Positions 15,307 through 19,797 of a DNA stretch of 64,000 bases are shown piece after piece (position 1 is the stretch's first letter; each line of letters opens with the position of its first letter). Position numbers and translations under genes: made by a program. The notes beneath the pieces were generated by a model. That model searched no databases. It saw only the letters and a list, made by a program, of their open reading frames with translations, and was not told the origin of the DNA. The DNA is taken from contig JAHEAX010000003.1 of the NCBI GenBank assembly GCA_024642525.1, positions 1 through 64,000 of the forward strand. Direction: 5' to 3'. Source of the DNA: Erythrobacteraceae bacterium. Its GTDB lineage: Bacteria; Pseudomonadota; Alphaproteobacteria; Sphingomonadales; Sphingomonadaceae.

Positions 15307-15332
15307 GGAACCCATCGGCATGGGCCGACGTT
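15307..15332 (+). promoter_or_regulatory. EcfG promoter of the single-domain response regulator
   Basis: GGAAC (15307-15311), 17-bp spacer, CGTT (15329-15332) is a perfect match to the alphaproteobacterial EcfG consensus. A second copy, GGAAC (15341-15345)-N17-CGTC (15363-15366), follows 34 bp on, with one mismatch. Both read towards the ATG at 15381. Confidence 0.8.
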
Positions 15333-15380
15333 CACATTCGGGAACCCGGCGCTTTGTCGGCACGTCCGGAGTTTGTGTCT

Positions 15381-15803
15381 ATGGTCAGCATTGCAGGAAA
15401 CAAGGCACCAGCCGGTTTTCGCAGAATCCTGGTGGTCGAGGACGACGCCTTGCTGGCGATGTCTATCGAACAGGCTCTGATCGATGCAGGCGCAGGTGAA
15501 GTTATCCTGTGCAGTTCAACCGAAGAGGCACTCGCCTCGCTACGCGAACATCGGCCCGATGCAATGGTTCTCGATGTTCATCTGGCAGATCGCGACGATG
15601 GCTGGGCATTGGCCGAACTGGTCAACGAAGTTGGCCCTCGTCCGCCGCGCATAGTGTTTTCGACAGGCGCGCCGCAGGATATCCCGCAGGCCATTGCCGA
15701 ACTGGGTTCCGTGCTCGAAAAACCGTATGACCCGGCTGACCTGATTGAAGCAATCCGCGGGCCTGAACGTCGCGGGCTTTTCTCCCTGCTGCGCAAATCC
15801 TGA
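15381..15803 (+). CDS. Single-domain response regulator (stress response)
   Basis: A 140-residue stand-alone receiver domain. Acidic pocket residues are Glu20-Asp21-Asp22, the phosphoacceptor is Asp65 (MVLDVHL), and Lys114 (VLEKPY) and Thr95 (VFSTG) are in place. The segment around FSTG followed by KPY resembles the FAT GUY type of single-domain regulators, such as SdrG of Sphingomonas, which relays phosphate in the general stress response; this is inference. ATG 15381 has CGGAG ten bases upstream. The perfect EcfG promoter and its position beside phyR support a role in that pathway. Confidence 0.8.
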   Translation: MVSIAGNKAPAGFRRILVVEDDALLAMSIEQALIDAGAGEVILCSSTEEALASLREHRPDAMVLDVHLADRDDGWALAELVNEVGPRPPRIVFSTGAPQDIPQAIAELGSVLEKPYDPADLIEAIRGPERRGLFSLLRKS

Positions 15804-15907: not shown

Positions 15908-15999
15908 AAAAAAGGGCCTCCGCTCTTCTGATGAGCGGAGGCCCTTCGGGATCGTATCACAGCCGTTTGGACGGGAGGGGGGGTCTCGGCGGTGATAAG
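15908..15999 (-). ncRNA. Candidate GsrN-like small RNA of the general stress response
   Basis: There is no credible protein frame in this 459-bp gap between genes. On the minus strand an EcfG-like promoter (16005-16029) is followed by a stem AUCAC-c-GCCG (15987-15996) pairing with CGGC-u-GUGAU (15956-15965), whose loop carries seven consecutive C and then UCCC. A perfect 12-bp terminator stem follows (15933-15944 with 15914-15925), ending in six U. The size is about 90 nt. GsrN of Caulobacter is a sigT-dependent RNA with a 5' hairpin exposing a C-rich loop that pairs with G-rich mRNA leaders. This RNA has the same plan and sits inside the phyR-ecfG locus. The 5' end is estimated from the promoter. 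Confidence 0.72.
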
Positions 16000-16004
16000 A
16001 CCAT

Positions 16005-16029
16005 AATGCCCGGCAGGAAAAGCGGTTCC
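16005..16029 (-). promoter_or_regulatory. EcfG-like promoter of the small RNA
   Basis: On the minus strand GGAAC (16029-16025), a 16-bp spacer and CATT (16008-16005) differ from the EcfG consensus by one base in the -10. The A/T-rich stretch just upstream (about 16038-16063, with two A7 runs) could act as an UP-like element. Confidence 0.62.
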
Positions 16030-16206: not shown

Positions 16207-16231
16207 GGAACCATCGCGCCGCGCACGCGTT
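16207..16231 (+). promoter_or_regulatory. EcfG promoter of phyR
   Basis: GGAAC (16207-16211), 16-bp spacer, CGTT (16228-16231): a perfect EcfG consensus, 31 bp before the phyR ATG. It implies positive feedback on the anti-anti-sigma factor. Confidence 0.88.
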
Positions 16232-16262: not shown

Positions 16263-17057
16263 ATGTCACTTGGTGAACAGGTCGCTACAAATTTACCGTA
16301 TCTGCGCCGTTATGCGCGTGCACTCACTGGCTCTCAGGCAACGGGCGATGCATTCGTCCGGGCAACGCTTGAAGCCGCATTGGCCGATGAAGAACTGAAG
16401 GCTTCGCTCGAACAGGGGCGTGTTCCGCTCTACCGGGCGTTCAACAAGGTATGGTCCAGCGCCTATCTGGAAGTGGACCAGGCATCATCGCAGGGTTCCG
16501 ACCATGAAGATGCAGCCAATGCCCGTCTCAGGTCGATCACACCGCTTAACCGGCAGGCTTTGCTGCTGACAACGCTGGAAGACTTCAGCATCGATCAGGC
16601 AGCCGAAATCATGGACCTCGATACCGGCGACGTGGAATCGCTCGTGCAGGAAGCTGTCGAGGAAATCGACCGCGAATCCACCACCAGCGTTCTCATCATT
16701 GAAGACGAACCGCTCATCTCGATGCAGCTTGAAGACCTCGTCTCCTCGCTGGGTCATGAAATCTGCGGGACTGCCGCAACGCGGACGCAGGCACAGGAAG
16801 TGGTTGCAGAACGCACTCCCGGTCTGGTCCTTGCCGATATCCAGCTGGCTGACGGTTCCTCGGGCCTCGATGCGGTCGACGATATCCTTGCCATTGGCAG
16901 CGTGCCTGTCATCTTCATCACTGCCTATCCGGAACGCCTGCTGACAGGTGACCGGCCGGAACCGACCTATCTGGTTACCAAGCCTTTCCAGGAATCGACA
17001 GTGCGCGCTGCCATCAGCCAGGCACTGTTCTTCGGATCGAGCCGCCCGCTGGCATGA
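16263..17057 (+). CDS. phyR: Anti-anti-sigma factor response regulator PhyR
   Basis: A 264-residue protein with the PhyR architecture. An ECF sigma-like domain (residues about 5-135, with LRRYARALTG and LLLTTLEDFSIDQAAEIM) is joined to a C-terminal receiver (142-258) with Glu147-Asp148, phosphoacceptor Asp192 (LVLADIQL), Thr220 and Lys240. When phosphorylated, the sigma-like domain binds NepR and frees EcfG. The Asp192-Gly198 region and the FITAYPERLLTG segment match the family. GGGAAGGG lies before the ATG. The gene has its own EcfG promoter and is followed by a terminator, so it is monocistronic. Confidence 0.95.
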   Translation: MSLGEQVATNLPYLRRYARALTGSQATGDAFVRATLEAALADEELKASLEQGRVPLYRAFNKVWSSAYLEVDQASSQGSDHEDAANARLRSITPLNRQALLLTTLEDFSIDQAAEIMDLDTGDVESLVQEAVEEIDRESTTSVLIIEDEPLISMQLEDLVSSLGHEICGTAATRTQAQEVVAERTPGLVLADIQLADGSSGLDAVDDILAIGSVPVIFITAYPERLLTGDRPEPTYLVTKPFQESTVRAAISQALFFGSSRPLA

Positions 17058-17198: not shown

Positions 17199-18848
17199 TC
17201 AGCGCTTCGCCCGCATGGCGAAATCGCTTGGCGTGCGGATCGGCACGGTGATGACGCAGCGCACGCCAGATGGGTTGAAATCAAGCTCGACAGGATTCTT
17301 CAACTCATGTGCCACGATCTTCTCGATCAGATCCGTGCCGAAACCGCGCACACGGTCCTGCTTCACAGGCGGGCCATCAGCTTCCTGCCACACGACACGG
17401 GCAAAACCGTCATCATGCGTCCAGTTGACGCTGACCTTGCCGCCAGCGGCCGACAGTGCGCCATATTTGGCGGCATTAGTGGCAAGTTCGTGGATAGCCA
17501 GGCCAAGCGACAGCGCCTCGTTAGGGGCCAGATCCACATCAGGCCCATCGATGGAGGTGACACCGCCATTGCCTTGCGCATAAGGTGCCAGTTCCGCTTC
17601 GATCACGGCCTTGACCGGGGTTGTCCCCCATTCCGACTGGGTCAGCAAATCGTGCGTGGCAGACAGGGCACGAATGCGTCCGTCGATCCCTTCCGCAAAA
17701 TCATCCAGCGATGTGGTGCGGCGGCGGGTCATGGCGATAATCGAAAGCACATTGGCCAGCGTATTCTTGACCCTGTGGTTTAATTCGCGCGTCAGTGAAT
17801 TGCGGATCGAATTCTGTTCGTGCAACCAGATGAGCGAAGCACGGTCTTCCAGCGCTTGCTGCGCCAGCAGGCGTGACATCAGCATCAGCAGGCTGGCCAC
17901 CAGCGCGCCGAAGATAAGCGTTGCCATGGATAGCTGGGACAAAACGCCGCTGCGGGCAGATTCCACCAGCAAGTTCATCGGATGGTTCGCGACCATCACC
18001 GGTTCCGAAACCGCATCGCCGGCAACAGAGCCAAGCGGCACTTCGGCCAACAGATTGGCATCGGAAATCTCGCCATCATAAAGACGGATGCCCGCCTTGC
18101 CGCGCCCTTCCAGTTCCAGCGCCGACTGGAGGAAATCCTGCGCGTTGAAGGGGCTGTAGATGAAGCCTTTCAATTCACGCTTGATCGCGCCACTACGGAA
18201 AACGGGCATATAGATAAGAAAGCCAGCTTCATTATTTGATCCGTCCTGCCGCAACACGATTTTGCCGCTGGCCGTCGGACGCAAATCCTGCACTGCCTTG
18301 TCCATTGCGAATTTGCGGACATCTTCGGAATACATATCGAAGCCGAGAGCACGCCTGTTGCGCATCGTATCAGGCTGGAGAAATGTGACAGGAACGACCA
18401 GCCTGCTGCTGCCGTCGGGCACTGGATGGACTTTGGTGAAACCGGTCAGGTTCGATTGAAGTTCACTTTCGAACCGGGCAAGATCATTGGGGCGCACGGC
18501 CTCTGCCCAACCGATGCCGCCGCCGCCGCGATAATCTGTATCCAGACGTAATTCGTTCACAAAACGCCGGAAAAGCGGGCCTTCAACCTCGTCCACCGTG
18601 GCCAGCAAGGCTGCCCCTGCCCGCAGATAGGATGAACTGGAACTGCCGCGCCGTTCGATCGCAGATGCCACGGCCTGTGCAGTTTCTCGCAGCCGCGCCC
18701 TGTCTCGCTGGCTCTCCCCGCGCTCGATTGCATAGACGCTGAGCGCAGTAATCGAAGCGATCAACAGGAAGATTGCGAGCGGGACCGCGCGCGGATAATC
18801 CACGAGCAGCCGCCGTGCCCGCCTCTCCCGATTTTCCGCCCGTTCCAA
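17199..18848 (-). CDS. CHASE-domain HWE/HisKA_2 sensor histidine kinase of the stress response locus
   Basis: A 549-residue membrane kinase. TM1 is at about 22-40, a periplasmic CHASE domain at about 75-260 (with GWAEAVRP and GFDMYSEDVRK), and TM2 at about 305-328. The HisKA_2 phosphoacceptor helix has His358 (TRELNHRVKNTLANVLSI), followed by an HWE-type ATPase with HELATNAAKYGALS and a GFGTDLI box. Kinases at this position (PhyP in Sphingomonas, GsrP/GsrK in Erythrobacter) act on PhyR as kinase or phosphatase; which applies here cannot be read from sequence. It is divergent from nepR-ecfG and shares an overlapping EcfG-like promoter with it. The signal bound by CHASE is unknown. Confidence 0.9.
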   Translation of the reverse strand: MERAENRERRARRLLVDYPRAVPLAIFLLIASITALSVYAIERGESQRDRARLRETAQAVASAIERRGSSSSSYLRAGAALLATVDEVEGPLFRRFVNELRLDTDYRGGGGIGWAEAVRPNDLARFESELQSNLTGFTKVHPVPDGSSRLVVPVTFLQPDTMRNRRALGFDMYSEDVRKFAMDKAVQDLRPTASGKIVLRQDGSNNEAGFLIYMPVFRSGAIKRELKGFIYSPFNAQDFLQSALELEGRGKAGIRLYDGEISDANLLAEVPLGSVAGDAVSEPVMVANHPMNLLVESARSGVLSQLSMATLIFGALVASLLMLMSRLLAQQALEDRASLIWLHEQNSIRNSLTRELNHRVKNTLANVLSIIAMTRRRTTSLDDFAEGIDGRIRALSATHDLLTQSEWGTTPVKAVIEAELAPYAQGNGGVTSIDGPDVDLAPNEALSLGLAIHELATNAAKYGALSAAGGKVSVNWTHDDGFARVVWQEADGPPVKQDRVRGFGTDLIEKIVAHELKNPVELDFNPSGVRCVITVPIRTPSDFAMRAKR

Positions 18849-18909: not shown

Positions 18910-18934
18910 GGAACCAAAGAAGCGCATCTTCGTT
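18910..18934 (+). promoter_or_regulatory. EcfG promoter of nepR-ecfG
   Basis: GGAAC (18910-18914), 16-bp spacer, CGTT (18931-18934): a perfect EcfG consensus, 79 bp before the nepR ATG. It gives EcfG autoregulation together with its anti-sigma factor. Confidence 0.88.
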
Positions 18935-18936
18935 CC
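18912..18936 (-). promoter_or_regulatory. Overlapping divergent EcfG-like promoter of the CHASE kinase
   Basis: Reading the minus strand over the same bases gives GGAAC (18936-18932), 16-bp spacer, GGTT (18915-18912), one mismatch from consensus. It points at the kinase gene, whose ATG lies 64 bp away. The two promoters interlock, so one bound polymerase would exclude the other. Confidence 0.55.
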
Positions 18937-19012: not shown

Positions 19013-19189
19013 ATGACGTCCGATAAGAACAAGAAATCCGAGAAAGGTTCGGAAAGCAAGAAAATGACTGGCGAGCAACAACGCCCGGAATGGGCTAACG
19101 GCTTGCGCCAACTGTACGATTCCGTCGTGGAAGAACCGCTTCCTGACAGTTTCAAAGACCTTTTGGCGAAGCTGGACAAGAAGTCCTGA
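19013..19189 (+). CDS. nepR: Anti-sigma factor NepR
   Basis: A 58-residue protein. After a Lys/Ser/Glu-rich N-terminus (about 25 residues) comes the NepR core GLRQLYDSVVEEPLPDSF followed by DLLAKL, which forms the two helices that wrap around EcfG. NepR holds EcfG inactive until phosphorylated PhyR takes it away. The stop codon overlaps the ecfG start as ATGA, so the two are translationally coupled. The assignment rests on both the core motif and its place before ecfG. Confidence 0.95.
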   Translation: MTSDKNKKSEKGSESKKMTGEQQRPEWANGLRQLYDSVVEEPLPDSFKDLLAKLDKKS

Positions 19190-19797
19190 TGGCTGACGAA
19201 GTCCGTACGGCCTCGGAAAAGGCCGATTTCAAACGCGAATTGACGGATGTCGTCCCGCACCTGCGTGCATTTGCGCGCGGTCTGTGCGGCCGTCCGGACA
19301 TGGCCGACGACCTGGTGCAGGAAACCATGCTGAAGGCATGGGCTGCGCAGGACAGGTTCGAACCAGGCACATCCATGCGAGCATGGACCTTTGTTATTCT
19401 GCGCAATGCCTATCTCACCGATATGCGCCGTAACCGCTTCCGCGGTGAGTATGATGAAAACGTCGCCGAACGCATCCTGACCGCACCGGCAGGACAGGAA
19501 GAACCAATCCATCTATCCGACATGCACCGCGCATTGCTGACCTTGCCGCCCGAACGGCGCGAGGCGCTGCTTCTCGTGGGCGCTGGTGGCTTTTCCTATG
19601 AAGAAGCAGCCAGCATTTGTGGCTGCGCTGTCGGCACCATCAAGAGCCGGGTCGGGCGTGCCCGATCCGCACTTAATTCCATGATGGAAGATGGCGATAT
19701 TCCCCAGCGGTCAGTCAATGATGCGACTGCGCATCGGGCCATCCTGCAGGAACTGGACATGGTGGCAGCCGGCAACGGAATCGCGTCGAAAGACTGA
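19189..19797 (+). CDS. ecfG: General stress sigma factor EcfG (ECF15 family)
   Basis: A 202-residue ECF sigma factor. Region 2 covers about residues 18-85 (HLRAFARGLCGRPDMADDLV, then AWTFVILRNAYLTDMRRNR) and region 4 about residues 107-165 (LLTLPPERREALLLVGAGGF, then EEAASICGCAVGTIKSRVGR). The linker and the family context with NepR place it in the EcfG/ECF15 group, which reads GGAAC-N16/17-CGTT. Such promoters are seen before nepR, phyR and the response regulator in this window. A C-terminal extension of about 35 residues follows region 4. Confidence 0.96.
   Translation: MADEVRTASEKADFKRELTDVVPHLRAFARGLCGRPDMADDLVQETMLKAWAAQDRFEPGTSMRAWTFVILRNAYLTDMRRNRFRGEYDENVAERILTAPAGQEEPIHLSDMHRALLTLPPERREALLLVGAGGFSYEEAASICGCAVGTIKSRVGRARSALNSMMEDGDIPQRSVNDATAHRAILQELDMVAAGNGIASKD

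Follow-up and report, generated by a model that had tools for sequence, protein, structure and literature searches.

The minus strand of the window, a 64,000-nt stretch of contig JAHEAX010000003.1 from an Erythrobacteraceae bacterium, very probably carries a small RNA (sRNA) gene within the general stress response (GSR) locus. The gene has a GGAAC-type promoter, a 5' hairpin with a C-rich loop and an intrinsic terminator. It is conserved in related genomes, where its stems covary, and it is linked to phyR. We infer that it probably acts as a stand-alone, trans-acting sRNA of the EcfG general stress regulon, the loop of which would pair with G-rich mRNA leaders.

Direct reading of the minus strand gave a −35 box GGAAC (16029–16025), a 16-nt spacer, a −10 box CATT (16008–16005) and 7 nt before the RNA, which runs from about 15997 to 15908 (about 90 nt) and begins with UAUCACCGCCG. 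The predicted start at 15996–15997 follows from the 7-nt spacing from the −10 box. The 5' hairpin (15997–15955), with 10 pairs and one mismatch, opens at the predicted first nucleotide. Its 5' strand, UAUCAC-C-GCCG (15997–15987), and its 3' strand, CGGC-U-GUGAUA (15965–15955), which closes as CGGCUGUGAUA ahead of a linker, enclose the loop AGACCCCCCCUCCCGUCCAAA at 15986–15966, containing seven C, U and three C, with the core CCCCCUCCCGUCCA. The terminator (15946–15908) has the stem AAGGGCCUCCGCUC/GAGCGGAGGCCCUU, in which 12 pairs are extended by two A-U pairs at the base to 14, and six U ending at 15908. The original prediction had described the promoter, the 10-position stem, the C7-U-C3 loop and a perfect 12-bp terminator stem with six U, and all were confirmed, together with the two further A-U pairs. 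It had given the span as 15908–16029; the element is there, but the RNA proper covers only about 15997–15908, and position 16029 belongs to the −35 box.

The predicted fold of 15911–16005 has an energy of −49.0 kcal/mol (z = −7.89), much of it supplied by the terminator, and none of 200 shuffled sequences was as stable. The lowest-energy fold also closes a 3-pair GAC/GUC helix within the C-rich loop. As predicted, the RNA lies in a 459-bp gap between the response regulator gene (end 15803) and phyR (start 16263) that holds no credible protein. Two minus-strand ORFs of 98 and 120 aa overlap the sRNA and are not credible genes, since the length of the aligned region ranges over 90–99 nt regardless of frame.

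Pfam searches confirmed the predicted location between a single-domain response regulator and phyR, inside the stress locus. The regulator gene (15354–15803, plus strand; Response_reg) is convergent with the sRNA, and the promoter scan placed an EcfG-type promoter GGAAC-N17-CGTT for it at 15307 (plus). phyR (16263–17057, plus; PhyR_sigma2, PhyR_sigma-like and Response_reg) has the promoter GGAAC-N16-CGTT at 16207–16231 (plus). Further along lie a CHASE/HWE histidine kinase gene (17199–18848, minus), nepR (19013–19189, plus; NepR), with an EcfG-type promoter at 18910, and a sigma-70-type factor (19189–19797, plus; Sigma70_r2 and Sigma70_r4_2), named EcfG because its gene adjoins nepR and phyR. 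EcfG-type promoters thus precede the regulator, phyR and nepR-ecfG, and those of phyR and the sRNA are of one type and point away from each other. At 18910–18936, a plus-strand GGAAC-N16-CGTT overlaps a minus-strand GGAAC-N16-GGTT, forming a near palindrome between the HWE kinase gene and nepR-ecfG, which by its sequence may drive both directions.

The first query spanned 136 nt, promoter included, and had matches in 18 of 59 genomes, counting the window's own. The alignment comprised the window and 16 relatives (17 rows); the match in L018 (24 nt, E = 0.0099), with no GSR gene beside it, was too short and was left out. GGAAC followed by N16 or N17 stands at a fixed distance in all 17 rows, with the −10 box 7 nt (once 8 nt) before the hairpin; this box reads CATT in 16 rows and GGTT in one. 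The loop core is identical in all 17. In the MAFFT alignment, pairing holds for 92.4% of 408 cells and 10 of the 24 pairs change on both sides; none of 500 shuffles reached these values, although 32 of the 500 equalled the alignment on one covariation measure, further pair types. The two-sided changes fall in 8 of 14 terminator pairs and in 2 of 10 pairs of the 5' hairpin, where 99.4% of cells are paired and 7 of 10 pairs are invariant. A larger model-fitted alignment (99 matches, 95 distinct, two weak), which leans toward the covariance model by construction, shows two-sided change in 19 of 24 pairs and in 14 of 14 terminator pairs. Conservation of the C-rich loop and stem in related genomes had been set beforehand as the check on the original prediction, and it was found, with an unchanged core and covarying stems.

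Linkage to phyR was equally regular. A loop-pattern scan of named genomes, which misses the GCGA variant, gave at least 119 sites, and 108 of those listed have phyR (>60% identity) in the stretch fetched. In all 108, phyR is encoded on the other strand, beyond the sRNA promoter, and the two genes stand head-to-head; the response regulator is convergent with the sRNA at all 68 listed sites where it was scored as near. The 11 listed sites with no phyR in the stretch show the regulator in nine cases and only the next gene in two (L123 and L154). The distance between phyR and the sRNA is 152–332 bp in most cases, and otherwise 965–1057 or 1431–1563 bp. At six loci of the 1-kb type that were inspected (L022:1678–2427, minus strand, and five others), a gene on the sRNA strand stands between the sRNA and phyR; the one tested by Pfam encodes a Crp/Fnr-type regulator. 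Where phyR is about 1 kb away, it keeps its own GGAAC promoter.

Two covariance models were used, R1 (the full RNA without promoter) and R2 (promoter and 5' hairpin without terminator). Among the matches listed for the promoter-less queries, R1 and the loop pattern, GGAAC stands 20–45 nt before the core in 148 of 148 distinct sequence windows; 11 of these were also in the first, promoter-containing search, and one site too near the end of its stretch was left out. Over 153 distinct sequence windows, the −10 columns read C in 149, A in 133 or G in 17, T in 149 and T in 147, and the spacer between the two boxes has freer bases. The EcfG-type promoter that had been claimed is thus borne out as a motif, and this motif suggests that the sRNA depends on EcfG. 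Its CATT departs from the CGTT consensus. According to work on Sphingopyxis granuli, CATT is the −10 box of PmltA2, a promoter transcribed in vitro by both EcfG proteins, and in EcfG promoters of this species a change to CGTT raises output and a change to CATT lowers it (PMC7083833).

R1 matched 107 of 249 genomes in the window's GTDB family (f1) at E ≤ 0.01; 102 were strong (≥55.6 bits), with one strong match in every such genome, and 5 had weak matches only. In the order, 107 of 296 genomes matched at E ≤ 0.05, and the 90 strong ones (≥63.8 bits) all belong to f1. In the class, 17 of 385 genomes matched at E ≤ 0.1, with only four strong, all in f1; R2 recovered the same four strong genomes from these 385, and five weak ones (L337–L341) with no GSR genes in their flanks. 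The large-sample searches use stricter filters, at which weak matches are lost. Weak R1 matches elsewhere (L072–L088) have no GSR gene in their 1.5-kb flanks, and the six inspected lack GGAAC within 60 nt of their upstream side. One weak match (L086:1501–1582; G131, C1:1160806–1160887; 25.9 bits with R1) is a C6-loop hairpin followed by a strong terminator, with no GGAAC in the preceding 60 nt and no GSR genes nearby.

Among the matches listed, the carriers are Erythrobacteraceae-type genera, Novosphingobium and Blastomonas marina, the names including Erythrobacter, Porphyrobacter, Qipengyuania, Altererythrobacter, Croceibacterium, Croceicoccus, Citromicrobium, Pelagerythrobacter, Tsuneonella and others; a name missing from the loop-pattern matches listed says nothing on absence. 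Thirty genomes were picked for having no strong match, and 19 of them have a phyR relative (20 loci). One of these loci (L089, in G347) holds a diverged copy beside phyR, with a full GGAAC-N16-CGTT and two C-rich runs in the hairpin, scoring 36.8 bits with R1 and 20.0 with R2. None of the other phyR loci among the 20 exceeded 19.2 bits (R1) or 13.0 bits (R2) with filters off. A further match, in G375 (C22:665028–665125), scored 36.3 bits, close to the value for L089. Since the strong matches are all in f1 and L089 is diverged, the gene appears confined to part of the family and able to diverge. The original prediction of a Sphingomonadales counterpart therefore stands as to a conserved gene but was too wide, as only part of one GTDB family has the gene.

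In the proposed mechanism, stress would free EcfG, which would transcribe the sRNA from GGAAC-N16-CATT; the regulator gene, phyR and nepR-ecfG, each with a GGAAC promoter, would be transcribed by it at the same time. The resulting RNA of about 90 nt would open with a hairpin at its extreme 5' end that displays the invariant loop (AGACCCCCC(C)UCCCGUCCAA), and would end at the strong terminator. The loop would then base-pair with G-rich mRNA leaders and alter their translation or stability. Because the nearest downstream gene is convergent, the RNA is not a leader and should act in trans. CCUCC is the core of the ribosomal anti-Shine-Dalgarno (anti-SD) sequence. The sRNA loop contains CCUCC and resembles motifs of GsrN, NfeR1 and SisA, and pairing with G-rich leaders was for this reason taken as the likely mode. 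GsrN, a C-loop sRNA driven by an EcfG-type factor, is described as acting on a G-rich leader (PMC5869019), and repression by way of anti-SD motifs is reported for NfeR1 and SisA (PMC10746234 and PMC12559287, respectively).

One possible target lies next to the gene itself. EcfG would make the sRNA, the loop would mask the unusual G-rich ribosome-binding site of phyR mRNA, GGGAAGGGG, and PhyR would be limited, damping the stress switch and shutting the response down. If this were true, the general stress response would have its own RNA arm acting back on its switch; we regard such feedback as unlikely. The phyR leaders of carriers often read CGGGAAGGGG before AUG. Among 133 distinct phyR leaders beside the sRNA, 76 contain GGGAAGGG or GGAAGGGG, and 12 contain GGGGUCU, which is complementary to AGACCCC of the loop and part of the complement of GAGACCCC. 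GGGAAGGG itself occurs in 55 of the 133; four sets of neighbour genes (n = 36 to 82) have at most one instance each, and 20 phyR leaders from genomes with no strong match have none. The mean pairing energy of these latter leaders is −10.5 kcal/mol (19 leaders, L089 left out), although 3 of the 20 also reach about −18 kcal/mol. The phyR leaders beside the sRNA pair with the loop at a mean of −15.55 kcal/mol; the reversed loop gives −12.60 and permuted loops give −13.43, with 6 of 200 permutations reaching the observed value, and neighbour-gene leaders average −9.2 to −13.3 kcal/mol. phyR pairs more strongly than the neighbouring regulator in 75 of 97 loci with both genes; these phyR-leader statistics ignore relatedness, and some loci come from one genome twice. 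Against feedback, a bulge or mismatch interrupts the duplex, the loop is retained at several Erythrobacter and Porphyrobacter loci that lack the phyR motif, and the window's own phyR leader pairs at only −12.9 kcal/mol, weaker than the mean.

For the preferred reading of a trans-acting RNA that pairs with G-rich leaders, targets were sought in the window's own genome. The original prediction had proposed a scan for G-rich leaders near start codons, and loop-complement pattern scans of this genome found no convincing target. Thirty-two sites lie within two mismatches of the 13-nt loop complement, exact only at the gene itself, versus 105 for the backward-read pattern; 30 of the 32 were read. 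The scarcity could reflect word composition or avoidance; the backward control differs in word content, and the low count is left uninterpreted. The pattern GGGAGGGG(N)G has 14 sites including the gene itself, and only one of the 13 others, all read, lies close to the start of a long ORF, 15 nt ahead of the ATG in a DUF418 gene (L267). By sequence, this gene and a DUF4440 gene (L258) are candidate targets. In L258:1500–1605 (C55 of the same genome), GGACCGGGGGGGG precedes the DUF4440/SnoaL-like gene, the GTG start of which was chosen by script; its pairing with the loop, −36.5 kcal/mol, is the strongest among the 29 other sites read.

coxB (cytochrome oxidase subunit II) was considered as a target and rejected. 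Its GGGAGGGGG, among those 14 sites and 105 nt before the start in the window's organism, sits by eye between GCTTGA (−35-like) and TATAGG (−10-like) in the comparison, and therefore looks like promoter DNA rather than a leader. Roughly 85–140 nt before coxB, L273 and its relatives carry the inverted repeat GCGCTTG-AGGGAGGGGG-CAAGCGC over the promoter-like spacer; it recurs with variation in several genera and is perhaps a regulator site, judging by its sequence. Separately, L178:7359–7443 (minus strand; Altererythrobacter sp. C41) is a further sRNA-like element with a hairpin, whose loop contains CCTCCTCTCC, and a strong terminator, and scores 27.5 bits with R1. Its best Rfam match, Scr3202, is below threshold (30.9 of 52 bits), and the element is possibly a second anti-SD sRNA.

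Somewhat less likely than phyR feedback is descent from a common ancestor with GsrN of Caulobacter, the sRNA being a true, drifted orthologue that also protects from peroxide by stabilising katG mRNA. The architecture, the EcfG-type promoter and the place in the GSR locus agree with this, as does a weak, sub-threshold likeness to Caulobacter CC1840, for which no link to GsrN has been made. However, R1 and R2 gave nothing credible beyond f1 among 385 class-wide genomes, a sample that may or may not include Caulobacteraceae. Of 24 genomes searched, 23 have katG-type genes, yet GGGG near the start occurs in only 6 of 24 katG leaders (23 genomes, one with two loci; start codons set by a distance rule, some perhaps internal), and no conserved G-tract or loop site was found in these leaders by sequence. 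The katG leader of the window's organism pairs with the loop at −11.3 to −12.1 kcal/mol, and the region does worse than shuffles (−12.1 versus a mean of −18.5). A good site was seen in single genomes such as L310, whose katG region holds GGAGGGGG and pairs at −24.5 kcal/mol versus a shuffled minimum of −23.7. katG was accordingly rejected as a target, and a connection to peroxide defence through it was not supported.

There is a small chance that the RNA is a sponge or a protein-binding RNA rather than one that pairs with mRNA: the genome has few near-complements of the loop and the scans yielded no clear mRNA target, but in this class an unvarying C-rich loop commonly marks sRNAs that act by pairing. 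That the hairpins are merely the terminator of the response regulator gene joined to chance upstream sequence is highly improbable, for although the stem, a near-perfect inverted repeat, lies 105 bp past the stop of that gene, only the sRNA strand carries the U run, the promoter, 5' hairpin and loop are conserved far beyond the needs of a terminator, and they are conserved also where no regulator adjoins the RNA (L012, L042, L051, L061 and L069).

The trans-acting EcfG-regulon sRNA proposed here was compared with known systems. At gathering scores, Rfam returned only three tRNAs for the window, and in a relaxed search no family fits the sRNA. CC1840 (RF01521) has a similar two-hairpin layout with a C-rich first loop and reaches 26.7 bits in the window versus a gathering score of 50; it rose above the cut-off only in the control Caulobacter vibrioides and in none of 289 class genomes. 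The alpha-r14/NfeR1 family (RF02344) shares a C-rich anti-SD motif in hairpin loops and scores 23.0 bits in the window and 24.4 in L002, versus a gathering score of 58.8. NfeR1 is described with three anti-SD hairpins, each with CCUCCUCCC, and a sigma-70 promoter (PMC10746234), whereas the present sRNA has one C-rich hairpin of differing sequence and GGAAC. The alpha-R8/SisA-D/MmgR family, absent from the Rfam results for the sRNA region, has a conserved 10-mer with an anti-SD signature; its members are described as mostly linked to the FGase gene (PMC12559287), and the sRNA here is linked to the GSR locus.

The closest parallel is GsrN of Caulobacter crescentus (CCNA_R0081; PMC5869019). Both RNAs have an EcfG/SigT-type promoter, here conserved as a motif, a length of about 100 nt, a C-rich loop near the 5' end, here predicted to be exposed and backed by covariation, and an intrinsic terminator. 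Both lie near core GSR genes, as GsrN is reported to do in most Caulobacteraceae (PMC5869019). They differ in the −10 box, CATT in the present sRNA, in the loop, CCCCCUCCCGUCCA versus six tandem C in GsrN, in the head-to-head arrangement with phyR seen wherever phyR is in view, and in the katG leader site, which is not conserved here. GsrN is further marked by cleavage into a stable 5' isoform, by pairing with a G-tract of the katG leader and by the peroxide sensitivity of its deletion mutant. BLASTn matches to GsrN are reported only in Caulobacteraceae (PMC5869019). Putative GsrN homologues of Rhizobiaceae were predicted, according to the same source, from transcription data and from three sequence features, an EcfG site, the GSR locus and a C-rich loop, and the sequence features all occur here; R1 and R2 did not find these homologues in the class search. 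The original prediction of a GsrN counterpart thus holds for anatomy, promoter, locus and likely mode; shared descent gained no support from the model searches.

The best reading is that the sRNA works like GsrN, as its anatomy suggests. No description of this RNA was found in the openly licensed literature searched. We file the gene as a new, unannotated family among EcfG-driven C-loop sRNAs. A conserved, phyR-linked candidate of this kind in many relatives of Erythrobacter litoralis would mean either that EcfG-driven C-loop RNAs have greater age and generality than has been supposed or that they arose more than once, and repeated origin, if true, would point to a benefit that a stress sigma factor draws from an RNA partner.
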